From Bacteroidota bacterium (GTDB lineage Bacteria; Bacteroidota; Rhodothermia; Rhodothermales; Bin80): 64,000 bases of DNA. Positions within the stretch are counted from its first letter, which is position 1. Each line of letters starts with the position of its first letter. Position numbers and translations under genes: made by a program. The notes under the pieces were generated by a model, which searched no databases, had not been told where the DNA came from, and was given only the letters and a program-made list of their open reading frames with translations. The stretch spans positions 62,001-126,000 of the forward strand of contig JAPOUL010000117.1 of the NCBI GenBank assembly GCA_026708685.1, written 5' to 3'. Shown here in pieces: positions 38,492 through 51,236 of this stretch.

Positions 38492-38827
38492 ATGTCCAAA
38501 AAAATAGAAATCAACTACGATGGAGAATGTGCCTTTTGTGCTTCTTCCATACGTTGGTTACGCCAACATGATCATGGAAATCAACTCTCCTACAAAACGC
38601 TTCCCAAGGGTGCATCATGTGTGAAATTAGAGGATGAAGATGGAACATGGGAAGCATCAACAGCCGCCCTCAGGGCAGTGGGGCATCTTGGGGGAAAATG
38701 GAGAGTCATCTCTCGGATTTTGATGCTGATCCCAAGGCAAGTACGTGATGCATTGTATAGATTGATTGCGAAACACAGACATTCATTATCTACTGGCGTT
38801 CAAGCAACTCAAAATAACGCTGAATAA
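38492..38827 (+). CDS. DCC-family thiol-disulfide oxidoreductase-like protein (DUF393)
   Basis: 111 residues. The N-terminal YDGECAFCASSIRWLRQHD contains the D-x-x-C-x-x-C motif (Cys13, Cys16) that names the DCC family, with the following LSYKTLP and TAALRAVGHLGGKWR typical of it. The fold is predicted thioredoxin-like and probably redox-active, but no member has a well-defined role. Its 3' end overlaps the end of the convergent DUF4175 gene by 38 bases. It diverges from the chromate transporter with a 12-base gap, so its promoter must lie inside that gene. Confidence 0.82.
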   Translation: MSKKIEINYDGECAFCASSIRWLRQHDHGNQLSYKTLPKGASCVKLEDEDGTWEASTAALRAVGHLGGKWRVISRILMLIPRQVRDALYRLIAKHRHSLSTGVQATQNNAE

Positions 38828-41800
38828 GTCTCTGATAGTCTCGGGTGTACCCACTCTCCAATGCGTCAATCAACGCCCGCTGTAGCTGATCAATCGACAT
38901 ATTTTCCCGTAGTGGTGGGGGCGGTTGTCGGTCGATTTCAGAGGCCTGTTGGCTTTCACGCCTTCGTTCCCGTCCTTGCTCTTGTAGACTTCTGGATGCA
39001 TCAAGTAATCGGGTGAGGATTTGTTGCTGCCTCTGTCTTGTAGGACGATTGACCTGACCAGATTGTAGGTCACGAACCGTTTCTTCCATCTGTTGGGCAA
39101 TCCGTTCCAGATCCCCCGCCAGTCGGTTGGCCAGATCTCGTTGTTGCGCTAAATCTGTCAGTTGGCGGCGCATTGCTTCCTGCTGAGCTGCAATTTGATT
39201 TAAACGCTCCTGCATATCTGGACTGAGACGTTCTCCTGATGGCTGTCCAAATAATTCAGCCATAGCTTTATTCAACTGGTCCTGTTGTTGTGCCATTTGT
39301 TGGAGTTGTTGAATCATATTCTCCATGGACATTCCTCCACCACCTGAGGATGAAGAGGAATTCATCAACTGTTCTAGTAATTCACTCAGTAGAAACGCTA
39401 AATCATTGAGGCTGGTCATGGACTGCCCTCCATGAGACTCTGCTGAAATAGGATCTCGATCGGTCAATTCTTCAACCGATGCATTCATGTTCAAGAGAGC
39501 ATTCCCTGCATATCGTTGAGCATCCCGTGGCAACTGCGGTAAGTGGCGTGCCAGAGACTGAAGAGAGTCAGAAATGAGAGCACCGCCAGTGGCCAAGATC
39601 GATTGTCTTCGGGCAAAACCTCGCAGTAATGGGCTTTCGTGCGTAGCATCTCGAATCTCTGCACGAAGCTGTTCTTGATCTATGGAGAGTCGAAGTGTAT
39701 TACTGAGAACCTGTTTAAGTGCAGCTGTATTGATGCTCATCTGTTGGCCCGTCATTCCGCTCTGAATATCAGACAGGTCAGATTGGAGTTGAGACATGGC
39801 CTGGCTCATCTGCTGCTGTCCCTGATTGGCCTGCTGCATTTGTCCCGACTGCATCTGTTGAGCATTCATCTGCATTTGTTCGGGAAGTTCTTGGGATGCA
39901 GTTTGTTGATTCAGTTGTTGCATTTGAGAGGTGGGAACGTTCTTAAGATCACTCATGCGTTCGGCAATGTCTTGCATTTTTTCTTCAAGCGACATCATCT
40001 CTTGAGATGCCTGCTCCTGTTGCATGGATAGAGATTCATCAGGATCAGTCATCATGGAATCCTGAGCAGTTTGCTCTGCGAGATTATCTTGGACATTCTT
40101 TAAATCTTCAGCACGTTTGGCAGCTTCCTCAAGTTGTTGCTGAATCTGAAAGTTTTTGAACAGTTCAAGCGTACGCTCCATTCTTTCTCTGAACATTTCT
40201 TCATTAAACTCAAACTTCTCCAGCGATTCCTGCATGCCTGCAGGGTCCAGATCTGACATAGCCTCCTGTAGTTCTTGAAGTGCCTCTAGGAGTTCAGGAG
40301 AATTGATTTCCTGAGTGACGTTCTGGATTTCATCAAACAGATCAAGGAGCTCATCACTCACCAGCTCGTGATCATCCATTTGCTCGGCGGCTTCGGCCAT
40401 ATTCTGGGCCAACTCATCCACTCGATTCTGGAGCATTTCCTGGGTTTGTCGAAGGGCTTCAAGGTTTTGACGGTCATCCCAACTGGAATCCTGTTTTCTG
40501 CGTACTTCATCTCGTAGTTCATCAAACTGATCTCGTACTTGTTGTGCATCTTCAATCAACGATTCAAGATTGGATTCGGTATTTTCTTGAATGGACTCTA
40601 GAGCCTCGTAGCGTTCGGTAATGGAAGGCAGGCGTAAGGTCTGGGTTGTTGAAACTCTCTTTTTTGCTCCGTTGTAGCCGTCATTATCCCAAATCGTCAC
40701 ATAATAGCTGATCACATCTCCGGGTACAATATCAAGTTGAGTCGTGGCATCCAAGTCCCAGAGATATTGAACTTCAAGCGTGGATGGAATCGGCAGGTTC
40801 AAAACATCATAGGATTCCATGGTGTCCCCAAAACGACTTTCGGATAAACGCCACGAGAGCGTAAATCGTGAAAATCCAAAATCATCGTGAACTCGGATCG
40901 TCAATGGTATAAGTAGCTCAAAATCCATATCTGTGCTCGCCGATGGAGAGATGATTTCCACCGATGGATAGCGATCAACAATGGGGGTGATGGAATACGT
41001 AATGGGGTCAAGGTTTCGTACTACACTACGCGATTCAAGAAGGATCTGGTAGGTGGTTTCGTCGTGAATTTCAATGGTTGCAGACGATTCTTCAAAGATC
41101 ACATCATTGGAGTCAGCATCTATCGAAAGCCATGCATGTACATCCGCCATGCTTGAACTTATCGTAATGGTAGCTTGGGTACCCTGTAACGCAGTGATAT
41201 GCCCCGTGCCAGATGGTAATTGCTCAGTAGAGAGTCCAGTATAGGCTGGCGGATCAAGTGAGATCTGGAGGTTGCGTAAGACAGGGCGGTCAACAATTGT
41301 AATTTTATACCATGGAGAAGAAACGGATCCAGCGACAGCACGGTATCGTAAGGGGAAGCGTATGTTGTTTTCGTGATGAACAAACTGACCCAGAGAATCA
41401 GCACCTACTTGATTGGAACGAACAGAGGTCTCAGCAACAGTACCCAGTTGAAAGGTCACGATTTCAGGAAGCTGGGCACCGAATGCTTCGGCTATAACGG
41501 AAATGGAATCTCCCTTGATCACTTGGGTATCGCCGGGGCTCACAACCAGCGAGAATGGGGTAGGGCGCTCAAAGGATGTCCCAGGTGAGAAAAGGCGCAC
41601 AGATGCGTGTTGCAATCCTTGGGGAGCTGCCAATACCAGAATCACCAACAGCCCCACAGGAATGACCAGAAATCGACTCCAGGACAGGGCATGCATCCAA
41701 TTCACCTGATGGGTCAAGGACATCTGGGAGACTTCCTGATCAAGCGTTTTCACGGCATGATCAATTAGAGGTTGTGGGGAAGCACTTGATTTGCCACTAC

Positions 41801-42152
41801 AAAGTTCAAGGAGGCAAATGATCCGATTTTGCAGAGATGGTTTTCCAAGGGTCACGAAGAGGGCGATCCTGTGGTACTTTGATCGGTTGATCCACCCATA
41901 GAGCCATGGCCACACGACCAGCCATGTGAGGAGCACGAGAGATGCACCTGTCCAAACCCAGAATAGGACACTCCGCCAGAGAGTAGGAATCCACAGACGC
42001 ATTTCCACCATTAACAGGAGCGTTAGCCAACTTGCCACCACCAGAATGACCAGAACAATGCCCACCGAAACACGTTCTGCTACCACCCGACTCCAGCACA
42101 TCCGAAGTTGCTGCTGAATCTCCGTCAATATATCTCTGGACTCATCACTCAT
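38790..42152 (-). CDS. DUF4175-family large membrane protein with Gln/Met-rich coiled coil
   Basis: 1120 residues. Membrane helices lie near 27-48, 60-82 and about 160-180. A beta-rich, probably periplasmic region follows (about 190-520), then a very long helical region rich in Glu and Gln (about 520-1115), with a Met/Gln-dense core at about 740-800 (MQQLNQQTASQELPEQMQ). The architecture matches DUF4175 proteins of Bacteroidota and Alphaproteobacteria, whose function is unknown. The coiled coil suggests a structural or scaffold role in the envelope. It lies alone; the MoxR/BatA-type neighbours sometimes seen with such genes are absent. Its 3' end overlaps the DCC gene. Confidence 0.75.
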   Translation of the reverse strand: MSDESRDILTEIQQQLRMCWSRVVAERVSVGIVLVILVVASWLTLLLMVEMRLWIPTLWRSVLFWVWTGASLVLLTWLVVWPWLYGWINRSKYHRIALFVTLGKPSLQNRIICLLELCSGKSSASPQPLIDHAVKTLDQEVSQMSLTHQVNWMHALSWSRFLVIPVGLLVILVLAAPQGLQHASVRLFSPGTSFERPTPFSLVVSPGDTQVIKGDSISVIAEAFGAQLPEIVTFQLGTVAETSVRSNQVGADSLGQFVHHENNIRFPLRYRAVAGSVSSPWYKITIVDRPVLRNLQISLDPPAYTGLSTEQLPSGTGHITALQGTQATITISSSMADVHAWLSIDADSNDVIFEESSATIEIHDETTYQILLESRSVVRNLDPITYSITPIVDRYPSVEIISPSASTDMDFELLIPLTIRVHDDFGFSRFTLSWRLSESRFGDTMESYDVLNLPIPSTLEVQYLWDLDATTQLDIVPGDVISYYVTIWDNDGYNGAKKRVSTTQTLRLPSITERYEALESIQENTESNLESLIEDAQQVRDQFDELRDEVRRKQDSSWDDRQNLEALRQTQEMLQNRVDELAQNMAEAAEQMDDHELVSDELLDLFDEIQNVTQEINSPELLEALQELQEAMSDLDPAGMQESLEKFEFNEEMFRERMERTLELFKNFQIQQQLEEAAKRAEDLKNVQDNLAEQTAQDSMMTDPDESLSMQQEQASQEMMSLEEKMQDIAERMSDLKNVPTSQMQQLNQQTASQELPEQMQMNAQQMQSGQMQQANQGQQQMSQAMSQLQSDLSDIQSGMTGQQMSINTAALKQVLSNTLRLSIDQEQLRAEIRDATHESPLLRGFARRQSILATGGALISDSLQSLARHLPQLPRDAQRYAGNALLNMNASVEELTDRDPISAESHGGQSMTSLNDLAFLLSELLEQLMNSSSSSGGGGMSMENMIQQLQQMAQQQDQLNKAMAELFGQPSGERLSPDMQERLNQIAAQQEAMRRQLTDLAQQRDLANRLAGDLERIAQQMEETVRDLQSGQVNRPTRQRQQQILTRLLDASRSLQEQGRERRRESQQASEIDRQPPPPLRENMSIDQLQRALIDALESGYTRDYQRLIQRYFELLERQ

Positions 42153-43227
42153 AGGGCTATTTCATTAAGATATGATTGAAGGAAGCACTACTTTCATGGT
42201 AGCATACTTATTCATGATCACTAACAATCATCAAAATGCACGATGGGAAAGTGGTATCGTAGTGATGAACTTCTAACAACATTTATTCAATTAATAAGCA
42301 AGACCATAAATGATGAATGAAGATTCGTCATAATCCGAGAAAAAAGTCTATCCATATCAAAATTTGACAAGTAGAAATCCTTTGAAGAAGAGTACGAAAT
42401 CGATTATTCTTGTATATATCTTGCTAATTTATGTTCCCTCAAATCCTGAGTAATTAGGCTGGCACGATGGATAAATAAAGTCCATTTCTATTTCGTATAC
42501 CATGCCAAGACGAGAACAGTGCATGGTGGTTGTTTTCCAATGCTTCTTATATTCGTCAATGTGACGGTTCTCAACGGATCATGTACTCATCAACATTAGA
42601 GTGTTGCTTGATAAGATGTGGAGCAATCTCTGGATTGCGATTGATTTTTTTCAGCACTGGAAATCAAGTATGTTGACAAAATTCATGCTTTGAACTTAAT
42701 AAAACTTTAGATTGATGATTGAGCAGATGACTTGGTTACATTGTTGGTATCGTCGTAATTCTATCTTTTTTTAGGGCGATGTGGAAATCATGGGAGGTAT
42801 TGAAACTGAGATGGTACAGATGGAGCGGCGGTTAGAAACGAAAATTCTTGAATCAAGGTTGAGATTATTGATCGATTTTCAAAACTTGAGGGAATGATAG
42901 AGAGACAGAAGCGATGTTGCCCCTGAGGCTCTGCAAGAGCCTTGAAATTCATCATTGGGAATAGCCGACTGTATGTAGTTTCATCCTGTTTTTGTAGTCG
43001 GGTTTTATTTCAACAATGGAGGCATCCATTGTAGCAATCATGTCCCTAGCGGGCTGGTGCAGTTTGATCAATATTATTGTTTGGTTTGATCTGATTGTTC
43101 CTGCGGATTCATTACTCTCAATGTGAGGCTCCATAATGCCCGAATTTATTTTTTTCGAAAGTGTAATTAAATGGGAATTGTATCGCAAAGTAACAATGGA
43201 TATGCGGATTCAGAGCAATCAGTGGAT
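42153..43227. other. Gene-poor region of about 1.1 kb with possible gene relic
   Basis: No intact gene is supported. At 42737-42780 one frame reads a hydrophobic run (YIVGIVVILSFF). In a different frame, 42790-42897 encodes a 35-residue basic/acidic heptad-like peptide (IETEMVQMERRLETKILES). Together they resemble a frameshifted copy of the membrane plus coiled-coil type seen at 36763. The rest is AT-rich non-coding DNA next to the insertion-sequence remnant. Confidence 0.35.
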
Positions 43228-43745
43228 TCATTTCTTGGAATCCTTACGAGCCTTGGGTAAGTTAATGGGTTGAAACACTGCTTTTCGAATGGTCTCAATA
43301 TCTACACCCGGCATATCAAACTCCTCATTCAACTCCTCACGTTTTGAGTTACTCATATTCCTGCGTTTACCTCCTATATAGGTTTCATCTACTTCAACTG
43401 GACCAGCAAAAGGTTCATTTAGACTCAGTTCAAACACAGCACGAAGTCTATGCAAAATAAACCAAGCAGCTTTCTGTCCATTCCCAATTCCCAATGTAAT
43501 TTCATAGAGGACATACCTTTGATGTTTGTGAGAAACAAATCAATACAATAGCTCGAGTTACGATAACTGATCTTAGAGATTTCCAGGACTGTTCCAGTCT
43601 TAACACTGAACATAGGCCTCTTATCACATTCACGGCAGTGATTATCCATATAATTCCCAATTAAATTATTTCGTACAGAGAGGCCTTTTCGCAGATAAGA
43701 CAAGATTTGACAAAGTTCATATTCATGATTTGAGTTGCTGCCGGA
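43228..43745 (-). mobile_element. IS1595-type transposase remnant, frameshifted and truncated
   Basis: Reading on the minus strand, a zinc-ribbon-like start (YMDNHCRECDKRPMFSVKTG) leads to TVLEISKISYRN and NIKGMSSMKLHWELG, the IS1595/ISXO2 N-terminal pattern. A one-base shift near 43490-43500 moves the frame to NGQKAAWFILHRLRAVFE and then EVDETYIGGKRRNMSNSKRE, the first catalytic Asp region. The normal start codon is gone and the rest of the DDE domain is missing: after NSKRE the frame reads an unrelated 34-residue tail (ELNEEFDMPGVDIETIRKAV and on to a Lys-rich end). No terminal inverted repeats or target duplications were found by eye. It is inactive. Confidence 0.75.
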
Positions 43746-43961
43746 TCAAGTGATAATTCAGATGGCAAAGTATCATTTCTATCAATTTGATTGATTTTGG
43801 AAATCTCAGGGATGAACATCATCTAAATCCAAAGTATGAATGTAATGACTACATTGATCGTAGTGGTCAGTATGTTTTTGAGCTTGACTGAGATAGAACA
43901 GAAACTTCCTCACGCAAGGTTGGATCACAGTATTCAAAGTCTCTTATGTCTGATTGGTGGG

Positions 43962-45083
43962 TCAGGCATTATTCGTCATTGCATGATATATGGATTGCGG
44001 CGGCACATAGGACCCATGCTCGCTCTCTACAAGAGCACCATATCGTAGATATCCGTCGAAAACCTTCTCGGCCTCCCACCGATCACAGGATGAGCTGATA
44101 AGTGCCTCAATGACATCGGATTTGTAAAGATACGGGTTGGGGGATGACTCGTGGATGCATTGAAGTAGGATGTCCACATGATCTGAGTGTCCGAAGATGT
44201 AGTGATTAAAGTGGAAGTTGATGGACTTGCGTCCCTTGGCCAAGACTTGCCGCAGTCCAGCATCCGTCATGATGCCTCCATAGGATCGCAAGTGCTCTGC
44301 GGCATCATGAGCATAAGAGCTCGTGAAGAGCGCAAACCCACATGTTTCTTTGATCATCGCTTCCTCCCATTCGGTCGTGTCGCCCTGAGCATTCCCATCT
44401 TCAACCATCCAGTCGCGGATGATCGCCCGCTCCTCGTCTTGACTGAGCCATCCAATGTCCTTAATGTTTTTGGAAGACAAGGTATATCCTGCTTTTTGGA
44501 AGCCTCTGTGAGTGAGTGGGTTTCCAGCCGCGATAAAGACTACTGGCCTATTGATGTTCCCCGATTCAATGCGATGGAGGAATTGTCGTATTACGGAGGC
44601 CATACTGGGAGGGAGCCTCTCAGAGATATAATGTGCCTTCCTCCTCAGCAAAAGAAGCGGAGTCGTACCTTCGCCGAGTACCTGGTCCATTTTGTGTGCA
44701 AAGGACTCAACCATTCTTCCTCTTCTGAGTGTGTCCAGAACAGGATCCGTCAGTGTCCATGAATGATCTGGGTTGCAAACACCCACATCCTCACCTCTAA
44801 TCTGAGCACTGAGACAGGCTGGGTGCCACAGGGACTCCCATGAAATGTCAATCGGATTCCAGCCCAAACTGACCCCCATCTTCCAGCATTGATCCAATAA
44901 TGCAACCTTGCCTGAGCCTCCAGGACCTTCAACAAGTAGAGTTGTACCGCCATGGCCTGCCTCTTTGGCCTTTGTGAGGAGTTTACGAAGGGGGGAGAGA
45001 ATGTGTGTTCGCCCGTGGAAGTGGCGAGATGCCCCAATACCTAAATCTCCATTACGATAAGGAGATGGGAATTTATGCTTCAT
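43962..45083 (-). CDS. AAA-type ATPase paralogue with degenerate Walker motifs
   Basis: 373 residues. After an N-terminal stretch ending HFHGRTHILSPLRKL comes a P-loop-like GPGGSGKVALLDQC, in which the Ser/Thr after Lys is Val. The Walker B position reads PLLLLRRKAHYI, with Arg-Arg where the sister ATPase at 50110 has Asp-Glu. The remainder aligns along its length with that sister: FIAAGNPLTHRGF with LLAAGLATTPSVF, EERAIIRDWMVEDGNA with SERAVIFAWITKDANV, and GGIMTDAGLRQVLAKGRKS with GRIMTPDGLKAVLELGRSG. A C-terminal winged-helix-like part follows. I infer a nucleotide-binding or inactive partner of a P-loop ATPase, function unknown. It is probably expressed alone; the IS remnant lies just downstream. 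Confidence 0.75.
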   Translation of the reverse strand: MKHKFPSPYRNGDLGIGASRHFHGRTHILSPLRKLLTKAKEAGHGGTTLLVEGPGGSGKVALLDQCWKMGVSLGWNPIDISWESLWHPACLSAQIRGEDVGVCNPDHSWTLTDPVLDTLRRGRMVESFAHKMDQVLGEGTTPLLLLRRKAHYISERLPPSMASVIRQFLHRIESGNINRPVVFIAAGNPLTHRGFQKAGYTLSSKNIKDIGWLSQDEERAIIRDWMVEDGNAQGDTTEWEEAMIKETCGFALFTSSYAHDAAEHLRSYGGIMTDAGLRQVLAKGRKSINFHFNHYIFGHSDHVDILLQCIHESSPNPYLYKSDVIEALISSSCDRWEAEKVFDGYLRYGALVESEHGSYVPPQSIYHAMTNNA

Positions 45084-45654
45084 GTTGGTAATAATTCGTG
45101 ATGATTTATGAGATGGTTAGATAACCAACAATAGCTCCCTACGTTCCCATAAGGAAAATGACACGCTCATCAAAGCTTCTAAAACCATGATGGAATGGCT
45201 TTTTCCCACCCCCACCTGTCCATTAGACCATTGCATATAGAAGATTGTGCTGTTTTTTTTCAGTTCATTAATTCAAGATTTTCGGATGTTTGAATCTGAA
45301 GATCATCAAATATTCATGTTACAGAGAATAAAGGAATGATTTGTTTTGAAAATCGATGACAAACCCCCATGAACGCTACCATCAAGGGTTGTTTTTTTGA
45401 TCAATTGCATTTGCTCAATTGGATCAATTATCCATGCTTTTGGTTTCATTGTCATAGCGAATATGCTCATTCTTGCTCCCGTAGAACTCAATTTAGTAAG
45501 AAGCTTTTGCAAAACCTCAGAGTTTTCGTAGAAATATTGCTCTGAAGCACCTGTGACGCATTTTCTATAGTTCACCAAGAGGTTTTGCAAACGGCTCGTA
45601 ATACATTAGTTTCACTTGAGATTGTTCGCCCCTCATTTCACTGGATGAACTTAT
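45084..45654. other. Intergenic region with one weak reading frame
   Basis: About 570 bases between the degenerate ATPase and glgC, which diverge. A 94-codon minus-strand frame at 45306-45590 (TTG start; peptide includes NSEVLQKLLTKLSSTGARMS) looks mildly protein-like but matches no family I know. It has no ribosome site, so I do not call it as a gene. The glgC and ATPase promoters must lie here. Confidence 0.35.
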
Positions 45655-50109: not shown

Positions 50110-51236
50110 TTAATTTTTCCCATATTCATCAACCAGCCATGAGTGCAGGGACGGTGTAACAATGAAAAGTCCATCCTTATTTTTTTCAAGAATTCCTTTT
50201 TCAATGAATGAATCAAAGAGATTTTTCGCCTCTTTTTTACCATATTTGTTGATCAGTGCTGACATGATATCTTGCATGTCGGCATCTATACCAGAGAAAG
50301 CATCAGGAATAGATTCTATTAGACACTGGAGTTGGTCTGCATAAAATTCATCGGTGCGTTGCTCATAGTACTGAATACGCCCAGATCTACCCAGTTCCAG
50401 TACCGCTTTTAGCCCGTCGGGAGTCATGATCCGCCCGTTTGCTTTCAGATACTCTGAAGCATGCCTCGCGTACGAATGTACATGCCTGGCCCATCCATGT
50501 GTTTCTTTAACGATCGCATCAATCCACTCTTCAGGATCTTCTGTGACATTTGCATCTTTCGTGATCCATGCAAAAATCACGGCCCTTTCGGAATTTTTAC
50601 TCAATGGTCCTAACTTTATGTTGTACTTCTCTGAGAATCTGGATATTCCCAGCGATCTGAAGACAGATGGGGTTGTTGCCAAACCAGCGGCTAGAAGAAT
50701 GACGGGTTTGTTTAATTCTCCGTTATGGATATCTTCCAGTAGTCCCTCAAGGTCTTCACGTCGTTCAATGGGGTGCTCGTGTGCGGATGCCAGTTTTTGG
50801 GATTCATCCATAATGAGAAGTAGAGGCTTTTTCTTTCGTTTGCCAACAACATCTGATGTGTGTGGGTGATTTGCTTTGGATGTCATGATTTCCATTTTAA
50901 CAGCATCTGATAAGTTCACAGAAATGGTATCAATGCTAGGGATTTTCCCATAGCCAAGAGCCCGCATCATTTTTCTTGGATTTAAAAGGGTATCTGTTCG
51001 AATCCTTACAGCATTCCATCCTTGTTTCTCTGCCCGCTCCCTGCATTGGTCAAGCAGGGCGGTCTTCCCAGCACCCGGTGCACCGTACACAAGGAAAACC
51101 GTGCCGTCTCCAGATTCCAATGCACTTGCAGAGGCATTTTCAAAGTCTTCTAGGATACTGGTTCGCCCTCGGAAGTAGGGGGTTGGGCCTCGATCAAACG
51201 AAGCAGGTAGGGAGAAAGCAGGTTTTTTTTAGCCAT
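50110..51236 (-). CDS. AAA-type ATPase with intact Walker motifs; start requires a -1 shift on an A8 run
   Basis: The P-loop YGAPGAGKTALLDQC, Walker B KPLLLIMDESQKL and sensor-like VILLAAGLATTPSVF mark an active ATPase. The C-terminal part (about 250-360) looks winged-helix-like. It is a full-length paralogue of the gene at 43962. The conserved upstream segment, here TPYFRGRTSILEDFENASAS and in the paralogue HFHGRTHILSPLRK, lies in a frame with no usable ATG. The only suitable ATG (51236, ATG GCT followed by eight A) is in the neighbouring frame and stops after 28 codons at 51150. A -1 slip within the A run gives MAKKKPAFSLPASFDRG and joins the long frame. Otherwise translation would start internally at the TTG near 51120 and lose the N-terminus. 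Function unknown. Confidence 0.75.
51223..51230 (-). other. A8 homopolymer, candidate slippage site
   Basis: Eight A residues on the coding strand, directly after ATG GCT of the ATPase gene. Re-reading one A (-1 ribosomal slip) or adding one A in the transcript or genome restores the frame to the conserved ATPase. The same pattern would be produced by a homopolymer sequencing error or a phase-variable tract. Confidence 0.6.

Follow-up and report, generated by a model that had tools for sequence, protein, structure and literature searches.

Two genes of one ATPase family were found in the window (the whole stretch of DNA that was analysed, 64,000 nucleotides in length), together with transposase remnants and a short dispersed repeat (Table 1). 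The first gene encodes a protein in which both Walker motifs are degenerate, and the second, located on the same strand, a protein in which both are intact.

Table 1. Features of the window (positions are counted from its first nucleotide)
Feature	Coordinates	Strand	Remarks
3.5-kb insertion	42153..45654		between the divergent genes 38790-42152 (minus) and glgC (45655), which are otherwise adjacent
IS1595/ISXO2-type transposase remnants, two frames	43228..43703	minus	first ORF matches PF12762 at 20.9 bits, under the cut-off of 27
Putative pseudo-ATPase CDS, ATG start, 373 aa	43962..45083	minus	AAA+/STAND-like core, lid and winged-helix C-terminus, predicted
Winged-helix-like C-terminal region, about residues 299-373	43962..44189	minus	from model secondary structure and whole-chain 2qen/2fna alignment; boundary inferred
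Walker B, degenerate (LLLLRRKAH, residues 143-151)	44631..44657	minus	Arg-Lys in place of Asp-Glu
Walker A, degenerate (GPGGSGKV, residues 53-60)	44904..44927	minus	Gly and Lys kept, Val in place of Ser/Thr
98-bp dispersed MITE-like repeat with perfect 13-bp terminal inverted repeats	45500..45597		from repeat search and fold
Paralogue with intact GAPGAGKT and LLLIMDES, 357 aa as read	50110..51183	minus	frame broken between the nearest ATG and the conserved body

A sequence-only reading of this DNA had described the two proteins as paralogues that align along their length and differ at the catalytic motifs. Both parts of this description hold: the alignment is full-length, with 29-32% identity, and the motifs are correctly read as GPGGSGKV and LLLLRRKAH in the degenerate protein versus GAPGAGKT and LLLIMDES in the other. 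The degenerate protein scores 13.5 bits against the Pfam family AAA_16 (PF13191), under the gathering cut-off of 32.6, whereas the paralogue scores 40.5 bits and exceeds it. In NCBIfam, PHROGs and PADLOC, the degenerate protein had no match at E ≤ 0.01, and the intact-motif proteins that were searched had only weak ones. The neighbour had been taken for an ATPase, which agrees with its intact Walker motifs, but the gene is not pristine. In the segment 50110-51240 (minus strand), the conserved body is read in a different frame from the nearest upstream ATG, which opens a family-like MAKK start; a run of eight A residues lies between them, and this discontinuity represents a frame break, an assembly error or slippage. 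The copies called active or intact-motif here are those with intact motifs, as judged from sequence alone.

To speak of two ATPases, as the same reading did, is to count too few. The genome carrying the window (3.83 Mb, 170 contigs) has 52 stretches that match the degenerate protein at E ≤ 0.01, fragments among them, and several of the family copies are split, fragmentary or interrupted by internal stops. Matches at E ≤ 1e-10 were obtained in 16 of the 39 genomes searched (this one included), ranging from 1 to 50 per positive genome when the best 50 candidates per genome were scored. All 16 belong to one family, and the 23 genomes from the other families of the order gave no match at this threshold. 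A search with the intact-motif alignment identified at least 39 named loci (with solitary STAND-like ATPases at loci L083-L119), residing in MAGs titled Rhodothermales, Bacteroidetes, Flavobacteriaceae, Gammaproteobacteria, Pseudomonadales and Aestuariivita, with the proteobacterial members more distant. Many of the matched isolate names start with CAR or RHO, prefixes that agree with the sponges Carteriospongia and Rhopaloeides of PMC8163846. Judging from these names, the host MAGs of the solitary STAND-like ATPases are probably those of sponge symbionts. One Flavobacteriaceae MAG (CAR1_bin_5) contains four confirmed loci and a further 55 unconfirmed first-look candidates.

Two observations concern single copies. 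In L026, the Walker B Glu is replaced by Gly (LDGAQ) in an otherwise ordinary copy with an intact Walker A, which is a possible ATP-trapping variant. L028 and L029 have 97% identity across 1129 bp, a stretch that nearly coincides with the ORF, and their flanks have no match among the matches listed; this pattern resembles the conversion of a complete gene. Genome contigs searched with the degenerate protein alone yielded no confirmed relative, and none of the titles and abstracts listed in searches of PubMed Central, which does not cover most subscription journals, dealt with this ATPase family.

Degenerate motifs were identified in two further genes only. One is located on contig C52 of the same genome (60% identical, with GPGGSGKI and RRKAH) and the other in the congener G005 (70-79% identical, with GPGGSGKV and LSKAH). 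Identical match coordinates identify the G005 genome as the one that carries locus L086 (record JAPOTS, isolate CAR3_bin_6). Full-length open frames are found in the window copy (373 codons) and in the second copy of its genome; in the copy of the congener, the frame breaks at about codon 103. This degenerate clade is present in 2 of the 10 genus genomes examined; no member was detected in the other six genomes of the family at E ≤ 1e-48, and no additional one in a class-wide search of 244 genomes at E ≤ 1e-42 (covering the best eight candidates per genome in several of them).

The positions of these genes were compared with those of flanking genes that we take, from their sequences, to be glgC, thyA, mnmE, yidC and genes for a TonB receptor and subtilases. 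Like the intact-motif copies, the degenerate gene of the window lies within inserted DNA, in an insertion that also contains the transposase remnants and the MITE-like repeat. The distance from glgC to the preceding gene is 98-122 bp in six of nine congeners; in G002 and G004, the gap holds an intact-motif ATPase gene of another subfamily, and in G005, two subtilase-like genes. A longer ORF at locus L111 falls in the same cluster as both transposase remnants, the second of which has no Pfam match. Six PF12762 matches occur elsewhere in the genome. The 98-bp repeat is found in at least 41 places in this genome, the one in the insertion included (best 40 of 111 candidates). The second ATPase gene of the window is likewise inserted, here between the TonB-receptor gene and the one next to it. 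In the six congeners whose compared stretch includes both of these flanking genes, the gap is 5 bp in four, and 640 and 1122 bp in the remaining two. Because the two ATPase genes occupy separate insertions, the degenerate gene has no particular tie to the copy located 5 kb away.

The other two degenerate genes are found elsewhere. That of G005 resides inside a 6.7-kb insertion that separates yidC from mnmE; in the eight other congeners compared, these two are 7-45 bp apart. In the genome of the window, the 6.9 kb upstream of mnmE contain other ORFs and no yidC match. The second copy of this genome is found upstream of thyA, where the length of the region varies and G005 has a different, apparently truncated paralogue. 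In all, the three degenerate copies occupy three different places, two of which are tight junctions in relatives. In different species, the glgC and thyA slots are occupied by ATPases from other subfamilies or by other cargo, and the glgC gap (L143, L144 and L141) and the thyA gap (L079 and L173) are possibly recurrent insertion sites. When the ends of a mobile unit were sought, matches between loci of this genome were found to extend variably past the ORF, with no common ends seen. No partner gene recurs across the flanks among 1021 clustered ORFs (most loci of this genome being represented by 1.5 kb of flank, with some overlap, so that a partner farther away may have escaped): the largest cluster is the ATPase itself, with 153 members in 120 loci, and the runner-up comprises 7 members from 6 loci. 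The ATPase genes are scattered and solitary, and the degenerate lineage is scattered too.

These positions bear on whether the degenerate copies are mere cargo, kept by riding on or aiding the spread of the ATPase family with no benefit to the cell. In favour of such selfish genes, the window and congener copies lie in insertions, all three copies are at different places, and two of these places are used by paralogues of other subfamilies elsewhere (the glgC slot in G002 and G004 and the thyA slot in G005); the repeat and the transposase remnants beside the window copy fit as well. However, the copies in this genome show no common unit ends, and no relative was obtained from viral contigs (with the degenerate protein alone or with the family alignment), from plasmids (with the degenerate protein) or from phages (with the intact-motif neighbour). 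Selfish spread alone also leaves unexplained the constraint, described below, on a protein that lacks the catalytic residues, and this explanation thus appears unlikely.

The catalytic positions were compared across 83 aligned rows, 79 of them distinct, comprising 36 copies of at least 330 aa from the genome of the window, 44 copies from relatives and the degenerate trio. Split and fragmentary copies of this genome were excluded from the columns and the tree, as was L007, whose Walker motifs are intact and whose length (307 aa) is below the 330-aa limit. The residue following the Walker A Lys is Ser or Thr in all 36 copies of this genome and all 44 from relatives, whereas the trio, which retains the Lys, has Val, Ile and Val and so departs from the GxxGxGK[S/T] pattern. 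The Walker B Asp is present in 80 of the 80 other rows and replaced by Arg, Arg and Ser in the trio; the adjacent Glu, present in 79 of the 80 (with Gly in L026) and in 35 of the 36 copies of this genome, is Lys in all three. As for two further motifs, which we presume from the sequence to be GxP and box VII, the trio keeps the Gly of GxP in three and its Pro in two of three members, the His of the GxP helix (79/80 other rows) is Phe throughout, and the box-VII Arg (78/80) remains in one. The loss of acidic residues at Walker B claimed from the window alone is accordingly real, neither a chance difference nor a misalignment, and the loss of the Walker motifs recurs in both other members of the clade.

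Not all conserved positions are affected. In 64 columns, the same residue is found in 85% or more of the other rows; the trio retains many of the scaffold ones (FHGR, GxxGxGK and several Leu, Trp and Gly residues) and alters the catalytic ones. Conversely, at 53 columns all three members share a residue found in fewer than 5% of the other rows, which suggests that new constraint has acted on the degenerate proteins. A His that is invariant in the family (residue 173 of the degenerate protein) is Glu in all three.

In the 83-row tree, which was drawn with a midpoint root, the trio forms one side of a single branch in 200 of 200 bootstrap trees (SH-aLRT 100). Its stem, with 1.56 changes per site, is the longest branch in the tree, and its tip branches are of ordinary length (0.13-0.32). 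The nearest group is weakly supported (86/50) and consists of L003 (the window neighbour), L004, L005, L008, L015 and L017, all with intact Walker motifs. Because the losses are common to the trio and fall on one long branch, they most simply predate the three genes. The simplest reading is that the degenerate state arose first and was followed by long purifying selection.

A codon model with one ratio gave an omega of 0.26 for the trio, and the values for single branches were 0.251 (window copy), 0.255 (second copy of the same genome) and 0.285 (G005). An omega of 1 was rejected on each of these branches (2ΔlnL of 4.7, 58.4 and 10.9, respectively), although the rejection on the window branch is modest taken alone. 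NG86 estimates among the trio ranged from 0.17 to 0.25, with pairwise dS of 0.7-1.7, and an IQ-TREE cross-check with omega and kappa fixed gave lnL values of -3293.6 at omega 1 and -3219.5 at omega 0.2. Intact-motif trios showed omega values of 0.10-0.30 in the eight that were fitted; nine had been chosen by hand, and one (L016/L010/L023) ran to bounds and was not used. Among seven regions of the degenerate proteins, the P-loop stretch (residues 46-75) is the best conserved, with 24 of 30 sites invariant versus 163 of 333 elsewhere (Fisher p 0.001, for a region chosen post hoc), and the intact-motif trios have their conservation peak in the same stretch. This peak is a hint that ligand binding has been retained, or that the stretch serves a structural purpose, with the usual Mg2+ chemistry gone.

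These results weigh on the view that the gene is a decaying copy, its function lost and its open frame that of a young relic still drifting. Several family copies in the same genome are indeed split or contain internal stops, and the degenerate copy of the congener has a frame break. Nevertheless, an omega near 1, as expected of a pseudogene, is not seen in the trio; neutrality is rejected on all three branches, if least strongly on that of the window, at values like those of intact-motif copies; the losses are common to genes that have diverged to the dS given above; both copies in the genome of the window are full-length and open; and conservation peaks in the P-loop as it does in intact-motif paralogues. 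Decay is therefore rather improbable, and the proposal of the sequence-only reading that selection, rather than simple decay, lies behind the degenerate motifs is supported by the comparison of substitution rates. It is very improbable, too, that the proteins are still ATPases or other enzymes acting through other residues, a view suggested by the P-loop Gly and Lys retained in the most conserved stretch and by the new Glu173, whose fixation in place of the invariant His in all three proteins makes a relocated acid possible, since none of the three members has the Ser/Thr after the Lys, either Walker B acid or the GxP-helix His, and only one has the box-VII Arg.

AlphaFold models of the single chains had mean pLDDT values of 86.1 for the degenerate and 88.0 for the intact-motif protein of the window, from input alignments of 29 and 28 sequences, respectively, that left out the other two degenerate genes; AlphaFold can give a fold even for a broken protein. 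The VIA lists for both models were headed by the archaeal structures 2fna and 2qen (Z 17.9-19.7, rmsd 4.5-5.0, 290-300 residues), followed by ORC2 and NB-ARC cores, some of them inside the tie margin of 1. For the degenerate protein, Z was 18.3 with 2qen, 17.9 with 2fna and 17.5 with the NB-ARC core of NRC4; for the intact-motif protein, it was 19.7 with 2fna, 19.1 with 2qen and 18.3 with ORC2, so that the entries after the archaeal pair fall inside or close to this margin. Foldseek ranked 2fna first for the degenerate and ORC2 first for the intact-motif model. PPR proteins came top in a profile search of solved sequences, ahead of CDC6, TnsC, DnaA and ORC chains, and were discounted as matches that probably reflect helix composition. 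A P-loop core, a lid and a winged helix are present in the predicted model of the degenerate protein, as its whole-chain matches to 2qen, 2fna and ORC2 indicate, and its descent within the same paralogous family is seen in the 52 matches of its own genome and in the tree. The two window proteins are thus predicted to share a fold that is near those of archaeal STAND/ORC-Cdc6-like ATPases, although a common fold is no demonstration of function.

The archaeal proteins SSO1545 (2fna) and PABY2304 (2qen) resemble the modelled degenerate protein in length and in their P-loop core, lid and winged-helix architecture. They share only 10-13% identity with it, and it differs from them in lacking the Ser/Thr and both Walker B acids and in being a bacterial protein from a family with tens of copies per genome. 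In the eukaryotic origin recognition complex, Orc2 and Orc3 are non-hydrolysing AAA+ paralogues retained next to active ones. The degenerate protein is likewise a degenerate paralogue beside active ones, but Orc2 and Orc3 belong to one obligate complex, and none is known for it.

Inactive STAND/ORC-Cdc6-type domains kept in bacteria, termed iSTAND proteins, are described in PMC12839542 and PMC7159879 and include BrxB, BrxF and the third component of MoxR-vWA systems; a sensory, regulatory role has been proposed for those of BREX and MoxR-vWA systems (PMC12839542). The iSTANDs and the degenerate protein have eroded Walker motifs in common, but the BREX iSTANDs lack the C-terminal helical bundle and occur within effector-bearing systems, whereas the degenerate protein has a C-terminus that is predicted to be kept (most blocks at pLDDT > 85), retains GxxGxGK and has no recurring neighbour gene that was found. 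The ORFs adjoining it, judged by eye, include none of the PglZ/BREX or MoxR-vWA type. With a C-terminus predicted to be retained, and no such system seen alongside, the protein was not filed as a BREX/MoxR-vWA iSTAND.

Taken together, the window gene probably encodes a maintained pseudo-ATPase, for which a role as a non-hydrolysing partner or regulator is plausible and, by the parallel with the iSTANDs of BREX and MoxR-vWA systems, the likeliest. Its catalytic residues were most simply lost once, before the three degenerate genes split; since that split, purifying selection comparable to that on the intact-motif paralogues has acted on the protein, and the P-loop scaffold and, as predicted, the fold have been preserved. 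Such a protein would not hydrolyse ATP and may hold nucleotide without Mg2+, or use its P-loop as a fixed structural element, and it would then be a locked, non-switching protein acting through its lid and winged-helix surfaces. Its most likely target would be the active paralogues, which it may bind or regulate, or the DNA or protein target that they have in common. Classical trans-activation of a neighbouring subunit is unlikely because the box-VII Arg is absent in two of the three members. The frame break in G005, the presence of the clade in only 2 of 10 genus genomes and the modest 2ΔlnL of 4.7 on the window branch were counted against maintenance.

A more specific version, which we regard as a long shot, is that the degenerate clade is a nucleotide-locked antagonist or immunity factor that restrains the dozens of mobile STAND-like ATPases in the cell, joining their assemblies or competing for their targets. 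If true, it would be a dominant-negative paralogue spreading with the very family under its control.

As maintained pseudo-ATPases, proteins under selection of this kind would reveal the worth of the AAA+/STAND scaffold without hydrolysis. The switch to the degenerate state is bracketed on one branch, with constraint after it and dozens of intact-motif paralogues in the same cell, so that a direct comparison of intact and degenerate forms is possible. A further point of interest is that solitary STAND-like ATPases have expanded in MAGs from several groups of bacteria.
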